Shown piece after piece: positions 2,955 to 64,000 of a DNA stretch of 64,000 bases (within the stretch, counting starts at the first letter, position 1; each line of letters starts with the position of its first letter). The position numbers and the translations under genes are program-made. Location of the stretch: assembly GCF_003945595.2 (NCBI RefSeq), contig NW_024104332.1, forward strand, positions 3,100,001-3,164,000. The letters are read 5' to 3'. The DNA comes from Pipra filicauda. Lineage: Eukaryota; Chordata; Aves; Passeriformes; Pipridae. Below the pieces are notes generated by a model. The model was not told where the DNA came from. It saw only the letters and a program-made list of their open reading frames with translations, and did not search any database.

Positions 2955-3886
2955 CTGTGGCAAGTGCAACTGGAGCCCCTCGCTGGGAATAGGCTGCCGA
3001 GATGGAGTCTGGTCCAGCTGCATGTTAAACAAGGATGCCAGGGCCAACTGAGCCGCCCGAGCTTTTGCCAGCTTCTTGTTTCTTCCCGAGCCCTCAAAAG
3101 TCTGACCATCCACCGCCACAGCCATGACAAAGTTTTTGGCGTGGCTCTCTCCGCTCTCCGAGAGAAACTCGTACTTCAGCCCCGGCCGCAGCTCATTGAG
3201 GATCATGACGGGGTTCTTGCCACTGGCAGTGGGGTAGGGTGATGGCGGGGGCAGAGGCGACTGGGAAAGGCTGCTGGCCACAGCGGACGACGGCAAACCG
3301 TATTCCCCACCAGAGCTAAAGGAGCCGTCCCCGTTGGAGCCGAGGTAAAAGGAAGCATCGGAAGGGACCGGCGTTTCAAACCCGTTGAAAAGGGTGTCGG
3401 GGAAGTCCGCCTGGTCGGACGTGAAGTCCGTGTTGACCGACAGAGTCCTTCCCATTGCCAGGTGGGCTTCCGAGGCGTTTGGGAACTGGACAAAAGACCG
3501 TAGAGCCTTCTCGGCAGCGTGAAGCTTGGCTTTCTTTTTCGTTGGGCCAGATCCCTCAAACACCTGCCCATTGACTTCCACTGCCATCACGAACATGGGG
3601 GCATGGACTGGCCCCGTCTGGGAGAGGAGTTTGTACTGTAAACCAGGTTTGATCTCATTAAGTTGCATCAGGGCGTTCTTTGGAAGAACAGGGCCGGGCA
3701 TTTTCTTCCTCTTCTTGGGGCGAAATTTGGAATGGCCATTGTTGCCCTCCTCCAAAGGTCTCTTCCTGCTGCTGCTGCTGCCACCGTTGGAGAGCTGTGT
3801 CCCCTCCCCGGCTCCTGTCCCACCGCTGTCTTTGGGGGGAACGTTGTCCACGTTGCGGTTTTCTTTAATGTCGGTGCTGCTCGAAC
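2955..3886 (-). CDS. ADARB1: ADARB1 (ADAR2) large coding exon with both dsRNA-binding domains
   Basis: Part of the nuclear enzyme that deaminates adenosine to inosine in double-stranded RNA, for example in glutamate receptor transcripts. The exon supplies residues 10-320 of the predicted protein. Basic nuclear-localisation-like clusters lie near residues 50-53 and 63-71 (KKRKK). dsRBD1 spans about residues 79-143 ([14 protein letters not shown], then [13 protein letters not shown]) and dsRBD2 about 232-297 ([14 protein letters not shown], then KKLAKARAA). Both keep the lysines of helix 2. Identity with human ADAR2 is very high in the domains; the Ser/Pro-rich linker (about 180-231) differs more. 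The exon starts after CACCGCAG at 3887, joining in phase to the single A left by the ATG exon, and ends at CAG before GTGAGA (2954-2949). Catalytic deaminase exons are not in this window. Identity is certain in practice; boundaries rest on splice consensus and homology. Confidence 0.97.
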
Positions 3887-3933
3887 CTGCGGTGCCCAGA
3901 AAGAGTAACTTACAATGCCTTCGGTGCAGGATC
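3887..3933 (-). promoter_or_regulatory. ADARB1: 47-nt alternative 3' splice segment created by ADAR2 self-editing
   Basis: The 47 nt before the normal acceptor are preceded by AA at 3935-3934. In mammals ADAR2 edits the second A of such an AA at exactly this distance, turning it into AI, which the spliceosome reads as AG; the extra 47 nt shift the frame. Here inclusion would give nine normal residues, then a shifted frame ending at TGA 3670-3668, 97 codons in all and without dsRBDs. A genomic AG sits one base further (3934-3933), which could in principle give a 46-nt insert without editing. Spacing and the dsRNA partner at 5230-5282 make the assignment strong. Confidence 0.85.
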
Positions 3934-3951
3934 TTGTAAATGCAAAATTTA
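3899..3951 (-). promoter_or_regulatory. ADARB1: ADAR2 auto-editing duplex, editing-site arm
   Basis: This segment of the ADARB1 pre-mRNA is complementary to 5230-5282. Manual alignment gives about 44 Watson-Crick pairs, 2 G-U pairs, 5 mismatches and 4 single-base bulges over 53 nt. The best block pairs 3929-3951 with 5230-5251. The -1 A (3934) pairs with U at 5246. The -2 (3935), +23 (3911) and +24 (3910) positions are also A; +24 faces C (5270), an A-C mismatch favoured by ADARs. The +10 position, edited in rat as I recall, is C here. Confidence 0.85.
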
Positions 3952-6900
3952 TAGATTCCTTTATCTCTCTTTGTAACTGGTTAAGTGATGTGTGCTCACA
4001 GGTTAAATATTTTTGCAATACAACCATAGATAATAATAATAACGTAATACAATCTCAATGATTCAAGAAATAACACACTCAGTGATCTTCAAGCTACACA
4101 TTTGATACAGTCACATAGCAAAAACCCACAACAGCTCTGGTTTTTTCATTTAAATTATGCTGGAACAAAACTTTTACTTATAAATTACATTTAGCCTGAA
4201 AAATGCCTTAAATCAGAAATATAAGTTATGGTAGAATATACCCATAAAACAAACAACTACCATTAATAAAATAAAAATGGATGCTTAAGACCAGAACTCG
4301 GAGACAGGTATTTAATTCTATTTTATTCTTATTTTAGTCATGTTACTTTTTTGCCTCAGTGATTTTTAGTTGCTCAAATTGAAAAATTACATAAATAAAA
4401 CCTGAGCAATGAAAAATTAGGTAGCTCTTTGGTAGGTACCATGACTGAAGAGTGTTTAAATGCTTTTGTTTCTCTTTAGCTATTCCGTATTTTCCTAATT
4501 CAATTCTTTTTTTATGCCTTTCCTAAATATTCATTTCACCTCACCCCAATTTTACTCAGGAACTACAGCTGCCTGCTGCCTACAGTTGCCTGCTGTGCCA
4601 CCATGACTACAAGACTACTTTATATATTTCCAGTAGACAGCCTTCTATTAAAAAAAAAACCAACTTATATTTGTCATTTACAAGCACAATCCCTTGCCAA
4701 AAATACTGCTGTCACAGAACTACAAACCCAAAAATCATTATAAAGATCCTCTCTTAAGGCTATGAGGAATAGAAGTGGGACAAAAGCTGCACATTTACAG
4801 TGATGATATTTTAATGGGGTGGGAGAAAGTCAATAACAACATAATGGTTTATTTTCAAAGTAGAAAGTTGGGGTAATGATATGTCAGAGCTATATTTAAA
4901 GAACTAAATTTGCTGTAACTTCAAAAGACCTCATTTTTACGCTGATAAAAAAACTAAAGAAATTGATTATTTGTGCTTTCTATTGGCATGTGTGAATGAA
5001 AAGGCAAATTTAGTAGGTCAAGTATTTCTAACTCTTCTGTTCCAAAACTTCAAAATATCTATATTACATCTACATTGATGCAAGGTGATAAATTTTAACT
5101 GAAATGAGAGCAAACCAAGGTGGGAGCTCTCGGAGCGACAAATTTCAGTGACGCTTTCAGTCTTCCCTAAGAATCCCCTACCATGCACACATCACTTCGC
5201 CCAGGTTACAAAGCTGATGGAATGGTTATTAAATTTTCATTTATAACATCCTCCAGCAAAAGCTTGATAGGTTACTCCTTTCGGTGCTCGAAGAGAAAGA
5301 AAAGAAGAAAAAAAAAAAAATCAAAGGAAAGAGCCAAAACAGGAACACATTTTGTTAAATCACGGCAGCACGGAGAATTGTACAGTACTGAACATGCAAT
5401 TAATTCAATTAAATTTGGTCAAGAATTGAAACACTGAGTATTCTGAAGCCTTTCATTGCTAGAAATCTGCTACGTTTAATCAAGTATCTCTTGTTCAGCC
5501 ACAAACATATTGCCTCAGAACGTGGGCCATGGTGTCAAAACTGTCAATACACATTGTTCATGCATATATTCTGTATATAAATACATATTTATGGTAGAGG
5601 AATCTAAGGACAAATAGAGGGAATTTTTAAATCTTTCCTTACAGTGAGTTTCTTACCTGAAGCTGTAATCTCCAAAAATTACATCTCATCAAAAACATCG
5701 TTTCTGGAACACTGCCCTTAAAGGTGGCACCAGGAATTTGTTATCAACCAACCAACATGACTTTTAGGCTGAACATAAATCACTGAGTTGACACTAATTA
5801 ATGGTCTCTGGTTTTATCTTTCTTTTTATATGAAGACAACTACCAATGCCTGTGGAAACCACAGAAGGAAAACAGAAGTTGAACAGGCTCCAGTTGAACG
5901 CTAAAAAAAGAATTTTTGCATGTAAGCACGGCAGTTGGAGGAACTCCTTAATCCATCTCACAATCCAGGTAGGAGAAATGATGCCCTGACAGAGAAGGGG
6001 GACTTGTAGGGAGCAGGAAATAAGCTTGCAGGCTTACCTCGTCTGATAAGAGAAAAGGGAAGAAACTAGTCCTTGACTGAGAGCTACTGGGTTTGTTAGC
6101 TTTGGAGAGCCTGGGGGGTGGGAGACATTAGGAGAGAAAGCAAGCGGGGAGCTGGCACCCCGAGTTAAACCAAGAAACCAGGAAAGAGGCAATTTTCTAC
6201 ACTGTGGAGTTGATCCAAATCCAAGCAGGCGATGGAAAGAAAACAATTCCTGCGCAAACCAAAAGGACCTGTGTTTGTTTCAACCCACAGAGTCACTCGA
6301 CTGCAAGAGAAAGGAACTCCTTCTCAGAGCAAGGGTGAAGATGTGCTTTCAGTCCTTTTCTTTAGCCTGTCCTGCCCAGCAGTGGTGAGGGCCTCTAATT
6401 GCCTTAGGGCTCGAGAAGATCTGACAGATTAGTCAAAATGTAGCCTGTTCGAGTCAAAGAAATCATCTCTAATCTTGTCCATATTCAGACATGGAGTAAC
6501 TCCTCCAGCCCAGCCTCTCCCTGCTGCCCAGAAACAGTCTTCCCTTTTCCAGGCCCCTCGCCTTCCAGGCTCATCCTCTCCTTGTCCAGCTCCCCATCTG
6601 TGACAGGGCCACCAGCAGACCCCAGGAGAGAGTATCATTCCAAGACATACCAAGGACACAGTGGCCCTTCCCCAGAGCAGCCTTGAAACTCTGGGCTGTC
6701 CAAGAGAGCATGGCAGGGAGCCATCCGGCAAAATGCCTAATTTGCTTTTAAAGACCCCACAAACTCTTGGTATCCACAATGTCCTGCCAAAGCACTTTAC
6801 AACTTCATTAGACGTTGCACGAAAACATCTCCCATTGCTTGCTTTGAACCTCCACTGCTAGTCTTAAAGCATCTATTGTTTTTTATTGGCTATTTTTTTT

Positions 6901-9900
6901 AATTTGATGATTTTAATATTAAACACTCCCTGCTGTGTACACTTTTACAGAGATCTCTAGCATTTCAACCTTCTCATCCCTCCTCTACGCCATAGGGCTC
7001 TAGCTGTCCCTTGTCCTGAGGTCATGACAGATGTGAATCACCACTCCTTGAACGTTCTAGGATAATTTTAAAGTCTGGCAGTCTCATTTGGAGACCGGTG
7101 ATAAGTTTTGTGCTGCCAGCATCACTGCTAAAATAGGATGGGAAAATGGGAACTGTAAATGTTAAAACACTGTTAGAAAGTATAAAGCAAAAGAGAGAGC
7201 TGGCAGGAGTAAAAAAAAAAAATCTGAATTATAAAACACTCTTCTACATTCAGGAATGGATGTTCTTTATTATTCTACTTCCTTTTTGATTAAACTTTTG
7301 TGGAGGTTGACAAGTGACCATATATTAACATTGTCTTGCCTCAGGAAGGTTGCATAGTCTTGTGGATCTTCTAACAGACCCAAAAATCAAGAGGTTTACA
7401 AACAGCCTAACCCTAGGTTTTCCGTGTTCTTTTTGCCTATGCATTTTCCAGTCTTTAAATAAGTGTTCAAGGAATGAATGCTTTAGAGAGCCCTTTGAGG
7501 ACCATCATGTCTGCTGTGTATTTAATGCTTTAAAGCAGCATTAGTACACTTGATGATTGAGATCCTGTTTTTCTAAACATTTATACAACCCATGATTTAA
7601 AAGTTGGACATTTTTCGTGAGGTTGGCATATTTTCTGGTCACTAAAATTAGTTGGTAGCTTCAACTGTAGATTTGACTGATGTCTGTGGAAGTTGCCTTG
7701 GTTCAAATCACAGTTGACAGTATCACACACCAGCAACTTCAGTGGGAGGAAAGTCCTTGCCCCCCAGATCTTGTTTGAGAACTTTCAAACCCAAGGACAC
7801 TCAAAGCAGAAAAAAGTCACAGGAAATTTTCATGCCAGTAAAGAATGAGATCTCTCCGAGTGCATTGGTTCATTTTTGGGTTTATTCCCTGTAATTAAAA
7901 AGTGCCTCCAATTAAGATGTTTTATCCATTGGGGAACTTCCATTACCTGCTTGCTGAGAGACAGCACTCTCCTTGCTCTGTCTGATCTGGAGCACAATTA
8001 ATTAAATTTAGATGACTCTTAGTTGAACTGAAAGATGATGATTGTAGCTACTCTCATTTAGTGGCCTGGGGACATTCTAAATAAATATCTTTTTTTCATT
8101 AAAAAACAGCATGCTCTCTTCTGAGCATCTTTTTGAAAAAGGAGGAAAAATTATCAAAGAGAAAGGTCAGGACAGCTACATGCTGGTGTCCCAAGTGTTC
8201 AGAGTGCTGTAGAAGTAACAGCCATGCAAAGCAACAGAAAACAAATAAAAATATTCCAAATAACCATATCTTTCCCCAAATCTCCTGTAACATCTTGGCT
8301 ATAGCCAATGGATAAACGAGGAAGACCTTAAAAGCTGAAGATGGAAACACTGTGTTTTCTCAGAGATGTTAATTTAGCAACATCGCTGTCTTACGTTTCA
8401 GCTGAACCAAAACAATTTTAATTCTGGCTTCTGCAAAGGAATCCCAGTAACAAAGACTGCATATGCCCACCTTCCTTTCCTTTAAGAAACTTTTCCCCAA
8501 ATGCAGTTACATAAAACAATAAAAAAATTAATAGGCAACTTCTGATATGCCACCACAATTTTAAGAGATACAAAAATAAAGAGAGATAAAAAGTTAAAAA
8601 AGCATATGTCTTCACACAAATTAAAGTGAAGAACTTAAGAATTTAAACTTTGATTTCTCCCCCTCAAGTGTGATGATTTAACACTTCAAATTCATAATGT
8701 TTGTGTGGGCACACGGGCAAAGGAAGGTCATCTTGCACTTTCTATTAACTGGGCTCAGCCAAGGGGACACAGTGATCCGACATCTTAAAACATGCTTCTG
8801 GGACACAACTGACGTTATACAAATGCATTCCATGGAAAATTTTAACAACTCAATGGAGCCAGGCTCCTGAAATGATAAAAAATTCCATGAGTGGTTTCCT
8901 GTATTGACACACTAACACGCAAAAAAACCCAGGAGCAGACAAAAATGTAGTCTTTTGCTCAGGGACAGAATGCCCCTGTAAAGACATGATATATTCCTCC
9001 AGTTCAGGAAGGCACCTTTTATTCATGCTCAGTTACACTCCTTATTGAAAAAAGGGATGTTTTATCAAAAAAATTATCTTATGTGAATTACCCAATTACA
9101 CTTTACTTTTCTGAAGTCCTCCTCAGGGAGACCACTTTTAGAAATAGCTAAAGCTTCCATTTGAAGTAATTTCTTTTATACCAAGGAAAAGAAAATGTTA
9201 GCAAGCATATTCCAGTTGAGTTTGCTATTTCACTCTAAGGAGAAAAGATGCATTCTAGTTCAGACAATATTTTTTGCTTTGTTTTGGTTTTTTTGGGGGT
9301 GGAGAATGTTTGTTTGGGGTTTGTTTGACCCATCTTCTTTAGCTTGCACTAAAATTTTTCTGTAACTCCTCCAGACTGAATTACAACTCTGCTACTCCTA
9401 CATTGCTGGGTTTGTTACCTTTGCCAGATGCACCCTTTAGCCACTGTCACTTAGGGGAAAAATAAGCACATTTGTTATTACACCATATGCAATCATTTAC
9501 AGTCAGGCACAGCACAGCAGCAACAGAACAATTCTCTGCTTCACAAAAAAAAAAAAAAGACAGTTGAAAGGCAAATAACAGTGCAAATATTCTGTAATGT
9601 TTTAATGAGAATGCTTTTCTCACAGGTTATCAGTTCTTCATTACAGCCCAGAGTTAGCAGTCTCACAGCACTTTGCTGCACCAAGATCATCACTATATTT
9701 GACTATTTTTGTCCTTTAAAGGCACTTTAATAATTCAGTAGCTCAGGGTTGGGACAATCAGCATCTAATAAGAATAATCACCCTATGTGAGACCCGCAGG
9801 GAGCTCTTCCAACTCCTCCTTTGCCTTTTCCTCTCTCCATTTCTGCTTTCTCTCCTTTATTTTATACTCTTCAACTCCATTCCCTTAATCTCACGCCTCA

Positions 9901-10228
9901 CGTCTTACTGGTACTTAACCCTTAGCATGGGCACTACTGGTACCTCCCTCCTTCACTGCTGGTTCAGAACAGGGAAATATGTTGTTTGATTAGTCAGTTG
10001 TTATAAGAAAAATATAAGGTGTGAGGTATAATACAGAAGGTATAAGTAGATTAGCATATTTAAAACACTTCTAATGCAAAAGCTCCAGCTCACTCTTCTA
10101 TATTGTATTTTAAAGAATTTTCATTTCTGCATCCCAAGTTCCTTTGCAGTCATCCCCGTGCTTGTGAGAAAAAGTCACCTTCAGAAACTATTAGAGAGTT
10201 TATTACTACGTAAATAAACACATCTTAC
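3952..10228. other. ADARB1 intron between the start-codon exon and the large exon
   Basis: About 6.3 kb of AT-rich intron, bounded by GTAAGA at 10228 and CACCGCAG at 3887. Apart from the auto-editing arms near its 3' end I see no exon, no CR1 and no LTR here. The absence of CR1 contrasts with the flanking introns. Confidence 0.7.
5230..5282 (-). promoter_or_regulatory. ADARB1: ADAR2 auto-editing duplex, intronic editing complementary sequence
   Basis: The distal arm of the hairpin, about 1.3 kb upstream of the editing-site arm in the transcript; the loop is about 1,278 nt. In rodents the corresponding intronic complementary sequence lies at a similar distance and is required for self-editing. 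On the minus strand it contains GGATGTTATAAATG facing the edited AA, and GAAAGGAGTAACC facing the +23/+24 region. Pairing may extend weakly to about 5205 and 3960 (a shared ATTCC). A pyrimidine-rich tract (minus strand of 5290-5323) abuts it on the 5' side. Confidence 0.82.
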
Positions 10229-10256
10229 TCATGTTTTCTTCATCGTCTACATCCAT
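10229..10256 (-). CDS. ADARB1: ADARB1 first coding part: start codon exon
   Basis: A 28-nt coding stretch encoding MDVDDEENM plus the first base of the next codon, matching the human start MDIEDEENM. The ATG at 10256-10254 has a strong context (A at -3, G at +4). The donor GTAAGA follows at 10228. Joining to the exon at 3886 restores a run of four serines, as in human ADAR2. The split after nucleotide 28 of the reading frame is the position where the mammalian auto-edited 47-nt insert enters. The frame is open upstream of the ATG through the whole 5' part of this exon, so an N-terminally extended isoform would be possible if an upstream coding exon were joined. Confidence 0.93.
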
Positions 10257-13460: not shown

Positions 13461-13745
13461 CACAGAATCATCCTAGAACCCTAGAGTGGTTTGGGTTGGA
13501 AGGGTCCTTAAAGCTCATCTCATTTCACCCCCTGCCATGGGCAGGGACACCTTCCAGGTTGCTCCAAGCCCTCCCCAACCTGCCCTGGGACACTTCCAGG
13601 GATGGGACATCGATAGTTTCTCTGGGCAACCTGTGCCAGGGCCTCGCCACCCTCACAGGGAAGAACTTCCATGCAGCATCTAACCTAAATCTCTTCTCTT
13701 TGAGCTTAAAGCTGTTCCCCCCCGTTCCCATTTCTGTTTTCCTGT
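13461..13745 (-). mobile_element. CR1 LINE 3' fragment
   Basis: Reverse-oriented CR1 end with GGTTTGGGTTGGAAGGG, CCATGGGCAGGGACACC and GGGCAACCTGTGCCAGGGCC. It is diverged near its inner end. Confidence 0.88.
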
Positions 13746-13955: not shown

Positions 13956-16900
13956 TTTCCACAAAAAAGGACTCTGAGCCCAGGCTGCTAACTACAGAAA
14001 AAGTAGCCTCTTGCCAAGGCATGATTGATTACTTCTGAAAGTCATTAATGATTCACTTATCATTTCCCATTGAAGAAGGAAAAGCATTTCCAACTTCTCT
14101 GACCTTCCAAACCTTTAATAAAGCAGCAAAACTGCATTAATAAATACATTTGCTGAAAATAACCCATTTAGCGACAGATATCCAGAAACCTCTCAGGTCC
14201 TGCAGACACAAAGCCTCCACACTGAGGTCGGGTAATGGTCAGTGGCACAGGACTTCACTGAAGCTGGTATGACAGCAGGTATGACAAACCCTCAAGTTTT
14301 GTTGCTAAAATCCTGCTCTGGGATAAGGGACACAACTACAGTAACATTCTCCGAGAGTACTGGAAAAACTTTTATTTCAGAAAAAAACCCGTAAGAGTAA
14401 AGGAAGAAGGTTAACTGCTGCTCAGAGATTAACAGAACTTTCAAGAAGAGCAATGAAGAATAACTGATGTAAATATTAACTGATTCGGGTCAGTGCATTG
14501 ACAGCACATTCTGTGTGGAGGAAGCCTCTCCATGGCTGCAGGAACTGTTTTCTCTCAGGTATACTGCTAAAATAAATTGAGGTTTTGACTGTACTATGCT
14601 ACTGTAGTAAGTATAGGGCATTTAACATGGAGTAACAAACCTCCATCCAGCTGTTACCTAAATTCACTTGCTGAAGCCAAGGGATTCTGCACAACAGCAC
14701 ACCCTGCAATATTTAGACTACAAACATCTTTCCTTTTCTAGATGCATTACAAGCCAGCCACTTCAAACAGGAAAACAACATCTAAATATATGCTAATTTA
14801 AGTAGAGCCAGGAAAAAGTCCACTTTTAATTCTCTTCCGGTTTTGAAGTCTTTAATTCCTATAGAGTATTTCTAAAGATAGGAAGAACATCAGAAGTACT
14901 TAAAAATGTACCAGCTAACACAACAGTATTTACCTTTATTTCTCCAAGAGACTGCTTGAAATATTTTTAAGTAAATGTTGGCAATAGCAAGTACACCCCA
15001 CATGAGGACATAGAGAGAGATAACCTACATTTCTTTTGTTCGGATATTCCAGGTATTCACTGCATACAAAAAAAGAGTTGTCAAATATCTTAAAAACAAG
15101 CTTGGTTTATCCTCATCATTGAGGGAAAACCTAAATTTACCTTGAAAGGGAAATTTAGCAGCTAACAATGTTTTACACACAGAAAATGGCATATATGCAA
15201 AAAAACCCATAACTTGAGAGATGACACAGAACTATTGGATGACAGCATATGCTAGAAACCTGCAGTTTTAGAGAAGTTTCCTATTTGTTAAAAAAGTCCT
15301 CTCCTTCCAAACTTTGAAAGCCAAGTGAAATAAAATGCTGGGAAACATTGAAGGATCTTGCTCAAAATATTTCCGACAAATCGAATTTCTCATGAACCCA
15401 AACCACAAACACTGAAGTTGCACTTTGCAGTGAAGGTTCAAGCCTCACCTGAAAACTACATTTACACCACCACTACAACCCCTCCTTCGACTGCTTTGTC
15501 CCAACCACGCAGCAATTAAAACAATACCTTTCCTCTCCGATCGTTTTGTCCTTCTCCGTTTCCAGCGCGGTCGGGTCGGGCTACAGAAGGTCCCCATGCT
15601 GAGAACCACGGCTTGAGGGAATGCCATGCACCCACCTACTCCCCACCAGCCCCCTGGCCCCCTCCCAAAGTGGCAGCAAGGTATTCCCAAAAGGAGGGTT
15701 ATCCCTGTGCTCTCTTTTCCCACGTCCTCAAAGCCTGGAGTGCACCGATGCACAGTCCAGTGAACAAGGATGAAGGCAGGATGCAGCTCACCCCTACCCA
15801 CTGCAAGAGGCACATGTGACAATTAACTCTTCGCCACGCAGAAGGGGCAAGGAAGGACAGTTCTCTTAGAATGGCTGTATCAAAGATACCATCACTGCTG
15901 GGCATGGAAAGGCAGAAATAATTTTATTTTGTTATCAAAATTGGTGGGCAACTCTTCATTCTTAAAGCTCAGAAACAAGGAGAGACATAAGCAAGGAAAT
16001 ATTTATATGTCCTAGTGCATAAACCCAAGATGCCTTAGGCATCCTTTATAACTGTTTCTCATGTTCACATTTCATGCACTGCCTCAAAAATGCACAAAAT
16101 ATATTTGAGAATAGCAGGAATGCATAAATACCCCAATCTGAAATATGTTTTAGTCACAGATTTTACATGCAAGGGTTTGTACATCAGGTCTGACCAAGAG
16201 CCTTCCCAATGTCAACATAAACTGTGGCATTTTCCAGCCTTTTCATAAACTAAAAAGCAACATGTGACATCATGGGATGATGTGGTATTATTCTGTTTCC
16301 CCCATCTGAGCAACCAACCAAACACACGTTCATCCTGTGGATCCTATGGATCATCAGCACAGCCTGGGGGTTGCAGCTATCCTTTAATCCTGCCTTCAGA
16401 TTAAACCTCACAGGGCAAAAAAAGCACGCTCCAGCAGGGAATGCTCGCAGGTGCAAGCTCCACAGGTTTCTTCAGTGATGAGATTTCTCTGACCAGTCAC
16501 CTTCAGCTGCAGTCAGACCTTTATTTTTCAGTACATCAGGCCTTGGCTCTTTGGAACACAGCACACCACTGAATCTGGATGAACTCAGGTAGATGACTTA
16601 CATGCACCATCATATTTTGACAACTATCCAGGTTGACCTTTTTTGAAAAACATTGCCACTGGCATCTTAAATCAGCAGTATTTCACTAGCCAAAAGCAAC
16701 ATGCTCGAGGTCACCACTGGGATTGAGTTGAAATGCTAGCAAGGAGCTCCACCCTATGATAATCGTTCTTCAGATCCCAGGTACCAGCTTTTTCATCTCC
16801 AGTCTGCTATGGAAAGCAGAGATGGAGTCAACTTGTTGACTTAAATCATTTTTGTCTGAAGCCTAAGCACCAAAGGCTTCAAACTTCCCCACTTCAGAGG

Positions 16901-17863: not shown

Positions 17864-18250
17864 ATAGAGTCAAATCACAGACCAGTGGTTTGGGTTGGAA
17901 AGGACCTTAAAAAAAAGTTCATCTTGTTCCAACCTCCTGCCATGGGCAGGGACACTTTCTACTAGACCAAGCCCTGTCCAAACTGGCCTTGAACACTTCC
18001 AGGGATGAGGCACTGACAGTTTCTCTGGGCAACCTGTGCCAGGGCCTCACCACCCTCACAGGGAAGAATTTCTTCCTAATTTCTAATCTAAATCTCTCCT
18101 CTTACAGTTTAAAACTATTTTCCCTTGTTCTATCACTATCTGCCTGTGTCAAAAGTCACTCTCCCTCTTTTTCATAAGCCCCCTTTCAGAACTGGAAGGT
18201 TGCAATGAGGTCTCCTCAAAGCCTTCTCTTCTCCAGACTGAACAACCCTG
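17864..18250 (-). mobile_element. CR1 LINE 3' fragment
   Basis: Reverse CR1 beginning CATAGAGTCAAATCACAG and running through GGGCAACCTGTGCCAGGGCC to CTTCTCCAGACTGAACAACC. Confidence 0.88.
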
Positions 18251-23463: not shown

Positions 23464-23752
23464 CTCACAGAATTACAGGATGGTTTGGGTTGGAAGGAAT
23501 CTTAAAGCTCATCTCATTCCACACTCTGCCATGGCAAGGACACTTTCCACTAGCCCAGGTTGCTCCAAGCCCTGTCCAACCTGGCCTTGGACACTTCCAG
23601 GGATGGGGCAGCCACAGCTTCTCTGGACAACCTGTGCCAGGGCCTCACCACCCTCACAGGGAAGAATTTCTTCCAAACATCTAAGCTAAATCTCTCCTCT
23701 CTCAGTTTAAAACCATTCCCCCTTGTTCTATCACTACCTGCCTGTGTGGAAG
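23464..23752 (-). mobile_element. CR1 LINE 3' fragment
   Basis: Reverse CR1 with GGTTTGGGTTGGAAGGAATC, CACTAGCCCAGGTTGC and CAACCTGTGCCAGGGCCTCA. Confidence 0.88.
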
Positions 23753-23974: not shown

Positions 23975-25967
23975 TGACGTCTTTTCGTGCACAAAGTAGA
24001 AGAGTCTCTGCTGTAAAGTATAAACTCAGTTGAACAGCACAACTACAGAACTGGGTTTTCCTCTCAAAACAGTTTTTCCATCTAAACTTGAAGAAACAGT
24101 TTGACATCTGTGATGGCAACTACCTCAGTTTATCAGAATGAACTAAAGAAATAATAGCCCAAATCCAAACCACAATCCCTATGGTCCTTTTGAATTGCTC
24201 ATTTAAAATTCTAAAATAAATTAAGAAAGTCTAGCAACTGGTCACCACAATGAAAAAAAAAAAGCTTAGGAGAAAAGGACATACATGTTGCAATTGGAAA
24301 AAGCAATAAGTGCCGTTTATACATGATACAAAAGTTGTCAAATGTGTCTCCTTCCCTTGACATAAAACAAACTCTTTTTGAACTTATGTATAGAAAGCAT
24401 TTGTTTGTAAGACACCGAAACCAAGTTCACTGACACTTCAAAAGCTATGAAAATTCAGCAGCTATTAAGCAACAGGAATCTATGGGTAGAAAACAAAAGG
24501 ATGCTACTCCATGTCATAATATCCAAGCAGTGACTGCTTTTACTGCAGGTATCAAATAATAATATGTTCCTCATTTATTCTGGAATACTCAAATATTCAA
24601 TACTCAGAGCAAACACAGCATAAATTATTTTTCAAACATTCTCTCATGAAAAATAGTTTCACATATTCACATAATACCAGCGAAGAACTCTTTATTTCTG
24701 ACTTTTAATTTTGTCATCTCTTATGTTTGAAAAATTGTATTAACTGATGCCTTGGTACAATTGACAGCCTAAAGCCTCAACACAAAGTTTCAGTACTTGA
24801 AACAAAATGATTTCAAAATCAATGATTTTAATGCCACTCCTCCTTTTAGAGGATCATCTGTAAAAGCATGGGTAAGAGCAGTTACCTTAAAAGAGAATGT
24901 GATTGAAGCCGAAGGAATTATTCACATGAGCAAAATTACCATAAATGTGTTCAGGGGAACTTAAGCTTTAATCTTGTTGATGATTTCACTATAGGTAATG
25001 TTTAAACATTTACATTACTCATTTAGCTGTTTTAAACATTAGTCAAACTGAAATAGTACAATAATGCAACCTCCAGACTAAGCAGTAGCTTTTGAAAGGC
25101 AATGGAATTTAAGAAATCAAAAGTATTAGTACTTTTTAGACAACAGTTAAAAAAACCCCCTTAGTCTGGACTACAGATACACTGTGGACAGGAATTTAGG
25201 CTACAGGACCAGCAGGGACAGGACAACCGACCCATCCCAGCCACACTGACCAATTTTGGCACTGGAGGGAGATGCCCCACTTCTTTGCAGCAGACGTTCC
25301 TGCATCAACTGATAAAGCTGCTGGAAGCTCTTGTCTCTGCTACAGTGATTGACCAGGGGGTTCAGCTCAACACATTCTAAAAAAACACCTGTACAACCTC
25401 CTTCATGCTTCTTTTACGTGTGTTCAGCATATAATACAGGAATGCAAATCTTTCTCTCTTTGAACAGCAGCGATACTTTTCAGCCTCCAGAACAAGGCAG
25501 ACTGATTATTTTCAGTCTTACTCCTACCCTAAGGCAAAGATTAGATGCATGTGAGCACTTTGTACTTAACATTAGTCTTCAGAAAAATGCCTCAGAATAA
25601 TAAAAGATGCCAAATAAATATCACTCAGTTCAGCAGTGTGCGAAAACATGAGATTATGTCCTGCACTAAGGACGTATGAATATCTTCTCTAGCTTTTACA
25701 GTGCGAAGTCACTCTCCACAGTCCCTAAATGAACTTTATTGCTTCAGGAGTGCCAAACCAAGGCACCTTATTCTGAGACTTCTACTTTTAAACACCTAAC
25801 CAAAGAATTCTTTAAGTTTGTTGGTGAGAAGCAACTTGATTGCAGTTTATACCACCAAGATGAAGATAAAGCAGTAGAAGAGGGTGCTGCAACTTCAGTA
25901 AAAAGACTTCACCAAACTAAAATCTACAGACTGGAAAAAGGGCTTAACACAGACACTGTACACATTT

Positions 25968-26520
25968 CATAGAATCACAGGAACACAGGACGGTTTGGGT
26001 TGAAAGGGACCTTAAAGACCATCTTGTTCCAACCCCACTGCCAGGGAGGGGACACCTTCCAGGGCAGGGACACTTCCCACTAGCCCAGGTTGCTCCAAGC
26101 CCCGTCCAACTTGGCCTTGGACACTTCCAGGGATGGAGCAGCCACAGCTTCTCTGGGCAACCTGTGCCAGGGCCTCCCCACCCTCACAGGGAAGAATTTC
26201 TTCCCACTATCCCATCTAACCCTGCTGTCTGTCAGTGGGAAGCCATTCCCCCTTGTCCTGTCCCTCCAGGTCCTTGTCCCAAGTCCCTCTCCAGCTTTCT
26301 TGGAGCCCCTTTAGGCACTGGAAGAGGCTCTAAGGTCTCCTCAGAGCCCTCTCTTCTCCAGGTGAACACCCCCAGCTCTCCCAGCCTGGCTCCAGAGCAG
26401 AGGGGCTCCAGCCCTTGGAGCATCTCCATGGCCTGCTCTGGACCCGCTCTAACAAGCCCATATCTTTTTTATGCTGAGGACCCCAAACCTGGACACAGTA
26501 CTCCAGGTGGAGCCTCATGA
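25968..26520 (-). mobile_element. CR1 LINE 3' fragment, longest minus copy
   Basis: Starts CATAGAATCACAGGAACACA and extends about 550 bp, through the GGGCAACCTGTGCCAGGGCC block to the inner segment AGTACTCCAGGTGGAGCCTC. Confidence 0.92.
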
Positions 26521-40449: not shown

Positions 40450-41440
40450 GACGAAAAAGGGCTCAGGGGTGGCGGAGGGGGGTGGGGTGGAGGTTATTCA
40501 GCCGGGAAGGGAAGGCGCTGGGATGTGCCGCCGCGTTTCACGCCCGAGCTGCTCTCCAAGGACGCGCCGCCTCCCGCTGCAGAGGGCGGGCGGCGGGGCC
40601 GGGGGCGCCGGACCCAGCACCGCCAGAGGGGCTCGGCGGCCCGGGGGGCACCGGGGGAAGGGGAGGGCGGTCAGGCCACCCCTCCGCGGCGGCGGGGTCC
40701 GGGCACGGCGGGTTCCCCGGTCCCCCGCGGCCCCGAGCGCCCGGGGAAGGCGCCGCGCTCGGGAAGGAGCCCCCGGGGCGGGCGGCCGGGGCCAAACTTC
40801 CCGCGGCGCCGCTACCCCCTCAAAATGGCTTCGCCGCCGCGGCCCCTGCCCGGGTGAGTCCGTCCGGGCGCCCGCCCCCGCCCCGCCGCCGGTACCGGCC
40901 GGGCCCCGCTCCGCGCCGCACTGCGCCCCCGCACCGGCGCCCTCGCCGCGGCCCGACCCCGCCGCGCTCAACAGGTGCGGGGCGGCCCGGGCCCGCCGCC
41001 ACCGGCACCGGCGCCGGCACCTGCCACCGCGTCAGGACCTGGACAGGTCCCGCGGGGCGCTCCCGCCGCTGCCGCCCCGGCTCACCTCCCGCGGCGCCGC
41101 GCCGCTGTCCCGGGCCCCGCCGCCGCCGCTCCGCCATGCGCGGCCCCGGCCGAGCCCCGCGGCGGCCCCGCTGCGCCGCCGCCGCCGCGGCCCCGCGCGC
41201 GCGCCGCCGACGTGCAGGCCGCACCGGGCCCGCCAGCGCCGCGAGCCCCGCGCGCGGGGAGGGGCGGGGCCGCGGGCATCGCCACCGCCCCCATTGGCGG
41301 GGCGCGCGCGCGGGGAGGGGCCGTCGGCGGTCGCGCGCTCTCGCAGTGCGGGGGATGGCGACGGGGGGGCGGGGCTTGGCCGTTCTGAGGGCGGCTCTGA
41401 TTGGGCGAGCGCGGGGAGAGGCGGAGCGAGGGGCGGGCAT
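40450..41440. promoter_or_regulatory. CpG island, probable ADARB1 promoter
   Basis: About 1 kb of very GC-rich, CpG-dense sequence in an otherwise AT-rich region, with many GC boxes and two inverted CCAAT boxes. It is TATA-less in the usual housekeeping style. It is the only large island between SLX9 and the coding exons of ADARB1, so it is the natural promoter of ADARB1. Long open frames on both strands here (for example 462 codons on the plus strand) are a by-product of the scarcity of AT-rich stop codons. A plus-strand ATG followed by a donor at 40825-40853 may mark divergent transcription. Confidence 0.8.
41086..41330 (-). other. Candidate ADARB1 first exon (approximate 5' end)
   Basis: Within the CpG island the minus strand has a good donor, GGGAG then GTGAGC, at 41085. 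Inverted CCAAT boxes lie at 41294-41298 and about 41400-41404, and several GC boxes (GGGCGG type) cluster at 41260-41370. This suggests transcription towards lower coordinates starting at about 41.2-41.33 kb. The start site cannot be fixed from sequence, and another minus donor (GGCAG then GTGCCG near 41022) is also possible. Confidence 0.35.
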
Positions 41441-41447
41441 TAATTAA

Positions 41448-41448
<1 letters not shown>

Positions 41449-41489
<41 letters not shown>
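41449..41489 (+). repeat. Run of 41 cytosines
   Basis: Uninterrupted C run directly after TTAATTAAT at the CpG island edge. The minus strand is poly-G and could form a quadruplex. Confidence 0.95.
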
Positions 41490-41491
<2 letters not shown>

Positions 41492-41588
41492 AGGGAGCCC
41501 CCTGCCGCGTTGGGATCCCCGCTCCCGCAGCCTCTCCCTCAGGGAGCCCCTGCCCAGTTGGGATCCCCCGCTCCCGCAGCCTCTGCCC
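41490..41588 (+). repeat. Tandem duplication, 49-bp unit, two copies
   Basis: Both copies start TCAGGGAGCCCC and contain GTTGGGATCCCC and GCTCCCGCAGCCTCT; starts are at 41490 and 41539. Confidence 0.85.
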
Positions 41589-42867: not shown

Positions 42868-43118
42868 GAATCACAGAATCCCAGAATGGTTTGGGTTGGA
42901 ACTGACCTTAAAGCCTTTGTCCAACCCCCTGCCATGAGCAGGGACACCTTCCATTAGACCAAACCCTGTCCAACCTTACCTTGAACACATCCAGGGATGG
43001 GGCAGCCACAGCTCCTCTGGGTAATCTGTGCCAGGGCCTAACCACCCTCACAGCCAAGAATTTCTTCCCAATATCCAATCTAAACCTACTCTCAGTTTAA
43101 AACCATTGCAGATCATTG
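42868..43118 (-). mobile_element. CR1 LINE 3' fragment
   Basis: AATCACAGAATCCCAGAATG through GCCAGGGCCTAACCACCCTC to CAGTTTAAAACC. Confidence 0.85.
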
Positions 43119-44297: not shown

Positions 44298-44887
44298 CAC
44301 GCTGGGAAAGAACATTGCCAGCAGGTCGAGGGAGGTGATCCTGCCCCTCTACTCAGCCCTGGGGAGGCCACATCTGGAGTGCTGTGTCCAGTTCTGGGCT
44401 CCCTCAGTACAAGAGAGACATGAAGCTCCTGGAGCAGGTCCGGTGGAGAGCTAACAAAGTTAATCAAGGGACTGGAGCATCTCTCTTTTGAGGAAAGGCT
44501 GAAGGAGCTGGGCCTTTTCAGCCTCGAGAAGAGACGACTGAGAGGGGACCTCATCCATGTCTATAAGTATCTAAAGAGGGGGTGCCAAGAAGATGGAGCC
44601 AGGCTCTTCTTGGTGGTGCCAACCAACACGACAAGAGGTGATGGGCAGAAACTGATGCCCTGGAAGTTCCACCTGAACACGAGGAAGAACTTCTTTCCTG
44701 TGCAGTGACCGAGCACTGGCACAGATTGCCCAGAGTATGTGTGGAATCTGCCTCACTGGAGATATTCCAGAACTGTCCGGATGCAAACCTGTGCCACGTG
44801 CTCTGGGATAATCCTGCTTGAGGAGGGAGGTTGGACCAGACGATCCTCTGTGGTCCCTTCCAACCTGACCCACTGTGATTCTGTGAA
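44298..44887 (+). mobile_element. CR1 LINE 3' fragment, longest plus copy
   Basis: About 590 bp: TCTACTCAGCCCTGGGGAGG, GTGCTGTGTCCAGTTCTGGG, GAAGGAGCTGGGCCTTTTCA, GAGGGGACCTCATCCATGTC and the tail CACTGTGATTCTGTGA. Non-coding 3' part; no intact reverse transcriptase. Confidence 0.92.
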
Positions 44888-53474: not shown

Positions 53475-53888
53475 TAGAATCATGGAATAAGAGAATTATA
53501 CAATGGTTTGGGTTGGGAAGAACCTTAAAGACCATCTTGTTCCAACTCCCTGCCATGGGCAGGGACACCTTCCACTAGCCCAGGTTGCTCTAAGCCCCGT
53601 CCAACCTGGTCTTGGACACTTCCAGGGATGGAGCAGCCACAGCTTCTCTGGGCAACCTGTGCCAGGGCCTCCCCACCCTCACAGGGAAGAATTTCTTCCC
53701 AGTATCCCATCTAACCCTGCCCTCTGGCAGTGGGAAGCCATTCCCACTTGTCCGGTCACTCCAGGCCCTTGCCCAAAGTCTCTCTCCAGCTCTCTTGGAG
53801 ACCCTTTAGGTAATGGCAGAGGGGAGGGCTCTAAGGTCTCCTCAGAGCCCTCTCTTCTCCAGGCTGAACAATCTCAATTCTTGGATGT
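53475..53888 (-). mobile_element. CR1 LINE 3' fragment
   Basis: AGAATCATGGAATAAGAGAA, CAACCTGTGCCAGGGCCTCC and TCCAGGCTGAACAATCTCAA. Confidence 0.9.
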
Positions 53889-59094: not shown

Positions 59095-59590
59095 GCATCC
59101 TGCAGCAGATGGCCAGAAAGGGATAAGACTGGAGGAATTCTGACTGGAGAAGAGAAGGCTCTGGGAGACCTTAGAGCCCCTTCCAGTTTCCAAAATGGCT
59201 CCAAGAGAGCTGGAGAGGGATCCTGGACAAGGGTCTGGAGTGACAGGACAAGGGGGAATGGCTTCTCGCTGACAGAGAGCAGTTTTAGATTGGATATTGT
59301 TGGGGTGTCCTGTGCAGGGCAAGAGTTGGACTTCATGATTCTGATGGGTTCCTTCCAACTTGGCATATTCTGTGATTCTGATAACAAATTCTTCCCTGTA
59401 AGGGTGGTGAGGCCTTGGCACAGGTTGCCCAGAGATGCTGTGGATGCCCCATCCCTGGAAGTGTCTCAGGCCAGGTTGGACAGGGCATAGAACAACCTGC
59501 TCCAGTGAAAGGTGTCCCTGACAATGGTAAGGGTTTGGAACGAGATGGGCTTTAAGGTCCCTTCCAACCCACACCAGTCTGTGATTCTAA
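59095..59590 (+). mobile_element. CR1 LINE 3' fragment interrupted by a second CR1
   Basis: Outer element: AGCCCCTTCCAGTTTCC, TCTGGAGTGACAGGACAAGG, then AGGTTGCCCAGAGATGCTGT and the tail CCAGTCTGTGATTCTAAG. It is broken between GGATATTG and CAAATTCTTCCCTG by about 84 bp of another CR1. Confidence 0.9.
59300..59383 (+). mobile_element. CR1 terminal fragment nested in another CR1
   Basis: TGGGGTGTCCTGTGCAGGGC, GATTCTGATGGGTTCCTTCC and tail ATTCTGTGATTCTGAT, inserted in the same orientation. Confidence 0.8.
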
Positions 59591-60153
59591 GACCAAGGCA
59601 AGTGTACAGCCACATCCTCTCCACTCTTTGCTGCTCAGAGACCTAGTGCCAGCTGCACTTTATAGACATGCAGCAAGCCCTCCATGGAGCTGTTGTCACT
59701 GGATTTGTCAGGTCCCACCTGAACATACAGGCTTCCTTCAGCCCTGACAACCTGTGGCAAGGAGCTGTGCAAAGCAGCAAGCCTCCTGCTTGTACTGAAC
59801 CTGTTACTCACTACATACATTTGATGTCCTTTAATTCTCATACTGGAAAAGATCACATCATGACAGAAAGGGGGCAAAGCCACCCACTCAGGCTCAGGTA
59901 AGCCCTGGCCCCAAACTCCAGCCAAGCAACTGTCTGTTTTCTGCAAGACTTGAAGTTTTGCTTGTACTTTTGCTGTTCATTCCCACTGAAAGAGAGGGCA
60001 GGCTGAATAAATGGTGGCATATAGGAAAAAAAAAAAACAAGAAAAAAGTGCTCCTCGAAGAATTAGAAGCTTGTAGCTATGAGCTGAGCTGAAGGACACT
60101 TCATCCCGCAGAAAGAAGGGAAATACACAGCCCATCCCCAAAATGGCACGTAC

Positions 60154-63431: not shown

Positions 63432-64000
63432 CTAGAAGAGAAGAGACATGAGATGGAGCCTGGCTCCTGTACAACAGATTCCATTCAACCCTCGATGCTT
63501 TTGAATTTGCTGGCAGGTCAGGCAGGCTGCAGGCATTGCAGGGGCTACACTGCACCTCCAACTTTTAGCCAAACGAATTAAACCCGACTTGCTGTCAGTT
63601 AAAAAAACAAGAAGCAAGTAGATCAGATCAGCAGCAGAGAATCCTAGAATGGTTTGGGTTGGAAGGGACCCTAAAGCCCATCTTGTTCTAACCCCCTGCC
63701 ATGGGCAGGGACACCTTCCATCAGCCCAGGTTGCTCCAAGCCCTGTCCAGCCTGGCCTTGGACACTTCCAGAGATGGAGCAGCCACAGCTTCTCTGGGCA
63801 ACCTGTGCCAGGGCCTCCCCACCCTCACAGGGAATGATTTCTGAAATATACCTGGGACAGCCCTGCAAGGAGCAGTCGATCACTAGCAGCTTGTAAAATA
63901 GGCTAGTACCTACTATTTACCAAATTCAGTATGGAAAGCAGCTGCTGAGCACTGGTATCCAATACCAAGTAAAATAACATCACAAATATTTTTACTGGCG
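63432..64000. other. SLX9 intron continuing beyond the window
   Basis: Contains a minus-oriented CR1 fragment at about 63640-63833 and no further SLX9 exon that I could match. Confidence 0.55.
63640..63833 (-). mobile_element. CR1 LINE 3' fragment, truncated
   Basis: AATCCTAGAATGGTTTGGGT through GCCAGGGCCTCCCCACCCTC, ending abruptly at 63833. Confidence 0.88.

Follow-up and report, generated by a model that had tools for sequence, protein, structure and literature searches.

The ADARB1 locus of the bird Pipra filicauda raises the question whether ADAR2, the enzyme encoded by this gene, edits its own pre-mRNA in birds as it does in rodents. We addressed it in a stretch of 64,000 nucleotides (nt) of contig NW_024104332.1 (positions 3,100,001 to 3,164,000; hereafter the window, with coordinates counted from its first letter), whose minus strand is the 5' part of ADARB1 (ADAR2). 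A sequence-only reading of the window had proposed an ADAR2 auto-editing hairpin in an intron of this gene, an identification that fits the gene, the 47-nt spacing, the AA dinucleotide, the A-C mismatch at +24, the frameshift and the conservation of both arms described below. At a probability of about 0.9 we take the hairpin to be the bird counterpart of the ADAR2 auto-editing element of vertebrates, predicted to work in the same way, and we infer that editing, splicing and dose feedback would take place in P. filicauda.

In rat, mouse and human the element responsible for ADAR2 self-editing was reportedly described by Rueter in 1999 and Feng in 2006 (both cited in PMC3629306). With it the P. 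filicauda hairpin shares the gene, the AA acceptor precursor, the 47-nt cassette, the frameshift and the location before the exon with the first double-stranded RNA-binding domain (dsRBD), as well as adenosines at -2, -1, +14, +23 and +24; it differs at +10, where the adenosine is replaced by C in this bird. Self-editing is established in rodents, and mice without it have more ADAR2 (PMC2694175; this and the other papers given by PMC number are cited from partial text). Among the literature matches listed (titles and beginnings of abstracts) none described self-editing of ADAR2 for a bird species, most subscription papers lying outside this coverage.

A long intronic stem before the first dsRBD exon

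The exon at 2955-3886 (minus strand; distal acceptor before 3886, donor after 2955) encodes both dsRBDs, as indicated by Pfam dsrm and by PDB 2l3j (editase 1), and the top match in the protein database comes from the songbird Malurus cyaneus (P0001; 96% identity across 85% of the query). The coding part of the start exon occupies 10229-10256 on the same strand, with the ATG at 10256; it reads MDVDDEENM plus an A and closes with ATGGATGTAGACGATGAAGAAAACATGA before a GTAAGA donor. When this exon is joined to 3886 the reading frame stays open throughout the downstream exon. Between the two lies the hairpin-bearing intron (3887-10228, minus strand, 6342 nt), whose 3' end reads, toward the exon, TTTACAA/GATCC...CACCGCAG/GTTCG. 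The element thereby sits in the intron preceding the first dsRBD exon, the position required of a vertebrate ADAR2 auto-editing element.

Folding of the minus strand over 3880-5330 yields a stem of 100 nt per arm, 3896-3995 with 5185-5284, containing 83 pairs (4 of them G-U) and enclosing a loop of 1189 nt; pairing probabilities exceed 0.9 for 65 of the 83 pairs and 0.7 for 81. The downstream (3') arm, 3896-3995, contains the editing sites and also takes in some of the pyrimidine tract belonging to the distal 3' splice site, and the upstream (5') arm, 5185-5284, is the editing-site complementary sequence. The sequence-only reading had placed the arms at 3899-3951 and 5230-5282, and these are indeed complementary on the minus-strand transcript, pairing in the long fold as well as in an isolated duplex. 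Its tally of about 44 Watson-Crick pairs, 2 G-U pairs, 5 mismatches and 4 bulges needed slight revision: the fold has 42 Watson-Crick and 3 G-U pairs (45 in total within these arms), 5 one-by-one mismatches and 3 single-base bulges. Its stem of 53 nt with a loop of about 1.28 kb was too short, corresponding to about half of the actual structure. The remainder is an extension that pairs 3952-3995 with 5185-5229 and includes an unbroken 13-base-pair helix (5185-5197 with 3983-3995).

The claim that such a duplex is very unlikely by chance was borne out when 1000 dinucleotide shuffles of both arms served as a control. The exon-proximal half (3899-3951 with 5230-5282) has an energy of -42.5 kcal/mol (shuffles: mean -15.7, standard deviation (SD) 3.4), the extension alone -40.5 kcal/mol (mean -13.6, SD 3.0) and the whole stem -85.0 kcal/mol (mean -30.4, SD 4.6; z about -12), and in none of the three cases did any of the 1000 shuffles reach the real energy. 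Within the 6.3-kb intron, divided into 310 segments, the downstream arm pairs best with the previously noted upstream arm, at -43.3 against -34.4 for the best segment elsewhere; in a scan of 3 kb of intron its strongest partner reached -83.5, and none of 60 shuffled introns did better than -54.1. Self-BLAST of the whole window recovers the pair independently (3894-3995 with 5185-5287, 71% identity over 107 columns, E 8.6e-8), placing it 13th among 54 inverted pairs within 3 kb. Of the twelve higher-ranking pairs, eleven fall within the GC-rich island at 40.5-41.5 kb, and the other joins 42871-43068 to 44683-44886, two segments 1.6 kb apart and 63% identical. An Rfam scan of the window gave no matches, and neither did a search of viral contigs with the DNA pattern of the downstream arm.

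These data describe a stable long-range duplex between the editing site and an upstream intronic complement. The GRIA2 Q/R and R/G stems have a comparable architecture, in which an edited site near the exon edge is paired with an intronic complementary sequence; the P. filicauda stem shares with them the exon-edge adenosine and the intronic complement, but they serve recoding rather than a splice-acceptor switch.

Predicted editing sites and conservation of the two arms

The AA dinucleotide at 3935/3934 (minus strand; positions -2 and -1) lies precisely 47 nt upstream of the exon at 3886, which is the layout of mammalian ADAR2 self-editing. As had been read from the sequence, A3934 is paired with U, its partner being U5246 (probability 0.97); A3935 pairs with U5245 (probability 0.84). 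A G-G mismatch (3933/5247) adjoins A3934 on its 3' side, and past A3935 there is a C-A mismatch (3936/5244). Also in agreement with that reading, the +24 adenosine, A3910, stands unpaired opposite C5270, and its neighbour A3911 (+23) pairs with U5269. Position +14 (3920) is an A paired with U5260, and position +10 (3924) is a C opposite C5256. The self-editing sites of rat ADAR2 are -2, -1, +10, +14, +23 and +24 (PMC2694175), five of which are A here, so that the bird has the rat set incompletely. Editing at -1, in the same intron end, is described for pig and bowhead whale ADAR2, with -2, +10 and +24 also edited in pig, where the frontal cortex shows 73% at +10, 75% at +24 and 55% at -1 (PMC8659423); the mammalian +10 site is absent in P. 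filicauda because 3924 is C. Every sequence requirement of the element that we tested was found apart from this adenosine, and since the +10 codon is other than that for glutamine in 7 of 19 aligned sequences too (see below), the full rat site set alone is not defining for the vertebrate element.

Conservation was gauged indirectly, by following both arms through peptides that a protein database contains from spurious reading frames. For the downstream arm the usable sequences are gene calls that run from this ADARB1 intron into the exon, and the read-through frame used as query returned 336 matches, the best 120 of which were considered; 36 of these 120 align over at least 18 of the 22 arm residues. 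Of these 36, 19 share the arm at 15-20 of 22 residues. The other 17 scored at most 11 of 22 and were excluded from the conservation counts; among them are spliced ADAR2 N-termini, named or apparent, together with sequences resembling ADARB2, and two of the 17, P0080 (9/22) and P0086 (11/22), may be diverged or partial orthologues. Among the 19 close matches, which look mammal-like and fish-like and of which a single one is named, the fish Cololabis saira (P0081), the -2/-1 codon encodes lysine in 18 and asparagine in one, so that all 19 retain AA. The +23/+24 codon encodes lysine, and hence keeps AA, in 17 of 19, and the codon ending in +10 encodes glutamine in 12, histidine in 5 and arginine in 2. 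Four apparent ADARB2 paralogues (P0099, P0103, P0118, P0120) are without the arm block (at most 7/22).

The upstream arm was followed with the antisense open reading frame at 5171-5434 on the plus strand, which gave 10 matches. All 10 have 16-17 of 19 codons the same as the window over the exon-proximal half, where nine carry KFSFITSSSKSSIGYSFRCS and P0126 departs from this at a single residue. In the extension (codons 5-19) P0124-P0127 share 13-15 of 15 codons with the window and the other six share 7-10 of 15, which makes the extension the less conserved part. Outside the stem (codons 41-60) seven of the ten retain only 0-4 of 20 identical codons; against a clean boundary, the bird-like P0124-P0126 remain similar there (15-16 of 20). 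As these matches were found by words shared with the query, they are biased toward its conserved segments, and the informative part is therefore the contrast between the inside and the outside of the stem. Antisense Thr26 (ACN) and Gly34 (GGN) are the same in 11 of 11 sequences, the window included, which fixes U5246, opposite -1, and C5270, opposite +24, in all eleven. One match, P0133, also carries a peptide resembling a short interspersed nuclear element (SINE), which we take to be of the cattle type, making a ruminant source likely.

To our knowledge, no protein uses these frames, and the peptide conservation was accordingly taken as conservation of the RNA sequence. Both arms, above all their exon-proximal half, recur in sequences unlike those of birds. 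The peptide-level matches thereby back the earlier description of the hairpin as conserved and support conservation of both arms among vertebrates, clear for the exon-proximal half and weaker for the extension.

The +47 frame, the proposed feedback and its alternatives

If the edited proximal acceptor were used, a 47-nt cassette (3887-3933, minus strand) would be kept, the frame would shift, and translation would stop after 97 codons at 3670-3668. By the 50-nt rule, a stop codon lying farther than this ahead of an exon junction exposes a message to nonsense-mediated decay. The +47 message is likely to be such a target, because its stop codon lies 713 nt before the next exon junction. The truncated product of 97 amino acids in this bird compares with 82 in rat and mouse and 31 in human (PMC5852575). 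Used as a query, it returned three matches (P0121, P0122 and P0123). In P0123 a start exon is joined to a segment that fits the 47-nt cassette and then to the shifted exon, so that the sequence is spliced; it is fish-like, and its N-terminus resembles ADAR2 of the fish Thalassophryne (P0035). A +47 transcript of zebrafish adar2 was reportedly described by Slavov and Gardiner in 2002. Judged by its sequence, P0123 is a +47 product that was spliced in a fish-like animal, and it agrees with the +47 edited transcript reported for zebrafish adar2, which shares with our locus a 47-bp alternative exon part arising through editing of the A before it (PMC4018279).

We propose that ADAR2 would bind the stem and deaminate the -1 adenosine (A3934), turning the AA at 3935/3934 into AI, which the spliceosome would read as an AG acceptor. 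Use of this proximal acceptor would add 47 nt, shift the frame and end translation after 97 codons; the product would be inactive and its message would likely enter nonsense-mediated decay. Higher ADAR2 levels would then produce more edited, dead message, closing a negative feedback. The pairing itself may weaken the normal, distal acceptor, because the stem, which reaches to 3896, covers part of its pyrimidine tract.

In the enzyme frame methionines occur at residues 1, 9 and 72, and Met72 is the first beyond the cassette, compared with residue 25 in rat, where a restart is possible, and 84 in human, where none precedes it (PMC2694175). Five ATGs in other frames come before Met72 in the +47 message. 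Met72 lies just upstream of dsRBD1, and a restart product would therefore keep both dsRBDs. Codon 22 of ADARB1 (3849-3851, minus strand) encodes valine here and in Malurus (P0001) and methionine in goose P0026, and P0003 and P0004 begin at a methionine matching this codon; it is possibly a restart codon that was gained or lost within birds.

Several points weigh against the hairpin being a working auto-editing element. Its support in any bird comes from sequence, not from RNA. No spliced bird +47 product is among the three matches, the bird-like P0121 and P0122 being unspliced read-through rather than transcripts. The partial texts of two papers on editing in chicken (PMC4449034, PMC4751552) contain ADAR2 in their reference lists only and ADARB1 nowhere in the main text. 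The bird has lost the mammalian +10 site, at which editing in pig brain is strong. Most of the aligned sequences carry no species name, P0010 and P0011 are near-duplicates, and all of them are peptides, not DNA. The lower identity over the upstream-arm extension concerns the six least bird-like matches. As for the stem itself, a raw-energy scan of 1272 100-nt segments leaves the stem (-85.0) outside the strongest 25 (25th: -92.7); this ranking is uninformative because GC-rich sequence dominates the list, and energy without a composition control would not single out the ADARB1 stem.

We considered one variant of this reading and three rivals. The songbird switch could be tuned differently from that of rat, with 100-nt arms, a partly buried normal acceptor, no +10 site, no early restart and less leak of enzyme, in which case the edited message would yield less enzyme and ADAR2 dose would be more tightly self-limited. 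We regard this as unlikely, and it is weakened because a restart at Met72 would still carry both dsRBDs. Still less probable is that the stem is an ADAR substrate and structural splice silencer that works by covering the distal acceptor, or serves as a recruitment site, with the -1 acceptor unused in this bird and no +47 isoform formed. The overlap with the distal pyrimidine tract and the missing spliced bird product would agree with such a role, but all 19 aligned sequences preserve AA at -2/-1, which is hard to explain without acceptor use, and a spliced +47 product is present in the fish-like P0123 and reported in zebrafish (PMC4018279).

That the conserved block is a coding or DNA regulatory element with incidental pairing is hardly credible. 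The in-frame exon extension is indeed conserved as a peptide, but in that frame a stop codon lies just upstream and no methionine follows it before the exon, the upstream arm shows its conservation in an antisense frame, the blocks are mutually complementary at a z of about -12, and the four ADARB2-like paralogues lack the block; on these grounds the coding explanation was rejected. An inverted pair of transposable elements lying before the exon by chance, for which the several inverted repeat copies in the window might speak, has a negligible probability and was rejected within the window, since neither arm is found elsewhere in it beyond 13-base matches and arms are common to fish-like (downstream arm) and mammal-like sequences.

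Other features of the window and meaning of the element

Farther upstream in ADARB1, 15528-15627 on the minus strand is a candidate for ADAR2R exon 0, which encodes an arginine-rich R-domain; it reads MAFPQAVVLSMGTFCSPTRPRWKRRRTKRSERK plus a G and is followed by a GTATTG donor. Joined to the start exon it continues in frame to ...SERKDRSSLRQPRNQQKYFTMDVDDEENM, like platypus P0007. For this exon mammals and zebrafish are listed, with no bird, in the partial text of PMC2626628. A CpG-dense, GC-rich island at 40500-41500 (GC 84-85%, with 83 and 87 CpG per 500 bases) is probably an ADARB1 promoter. An interspersed repeat family occurs in both orientations, 72-92% alike in the listed pairs, at 3-435, 13471-13668, 17873-18250 and 23469-23747, with further copies at 25956-26493, 53492-53871, 59112-59609 and 63638-63842.

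Relative to the sequence-only reading, the second half of the stem (3952-3995 with 5185-5229) is new, with no claim of novelty for the family in view of the partial texts cited; the loss of +10 and the differences in restart codons are further points of novelty. All are refinements that leave the known mechanism unchanged and do not make this a new kind of system.

The analysis supplies exact positions that can be inspected in existing bird RNA, and it describes a long intronic RNA stem with conservation in both arms that is strongest in the editing-site half. On sequence evidence, the ADAR2 negative-feedback loop would be placed in a bird, between fish and mammals with a documented +47 isoform or editing.
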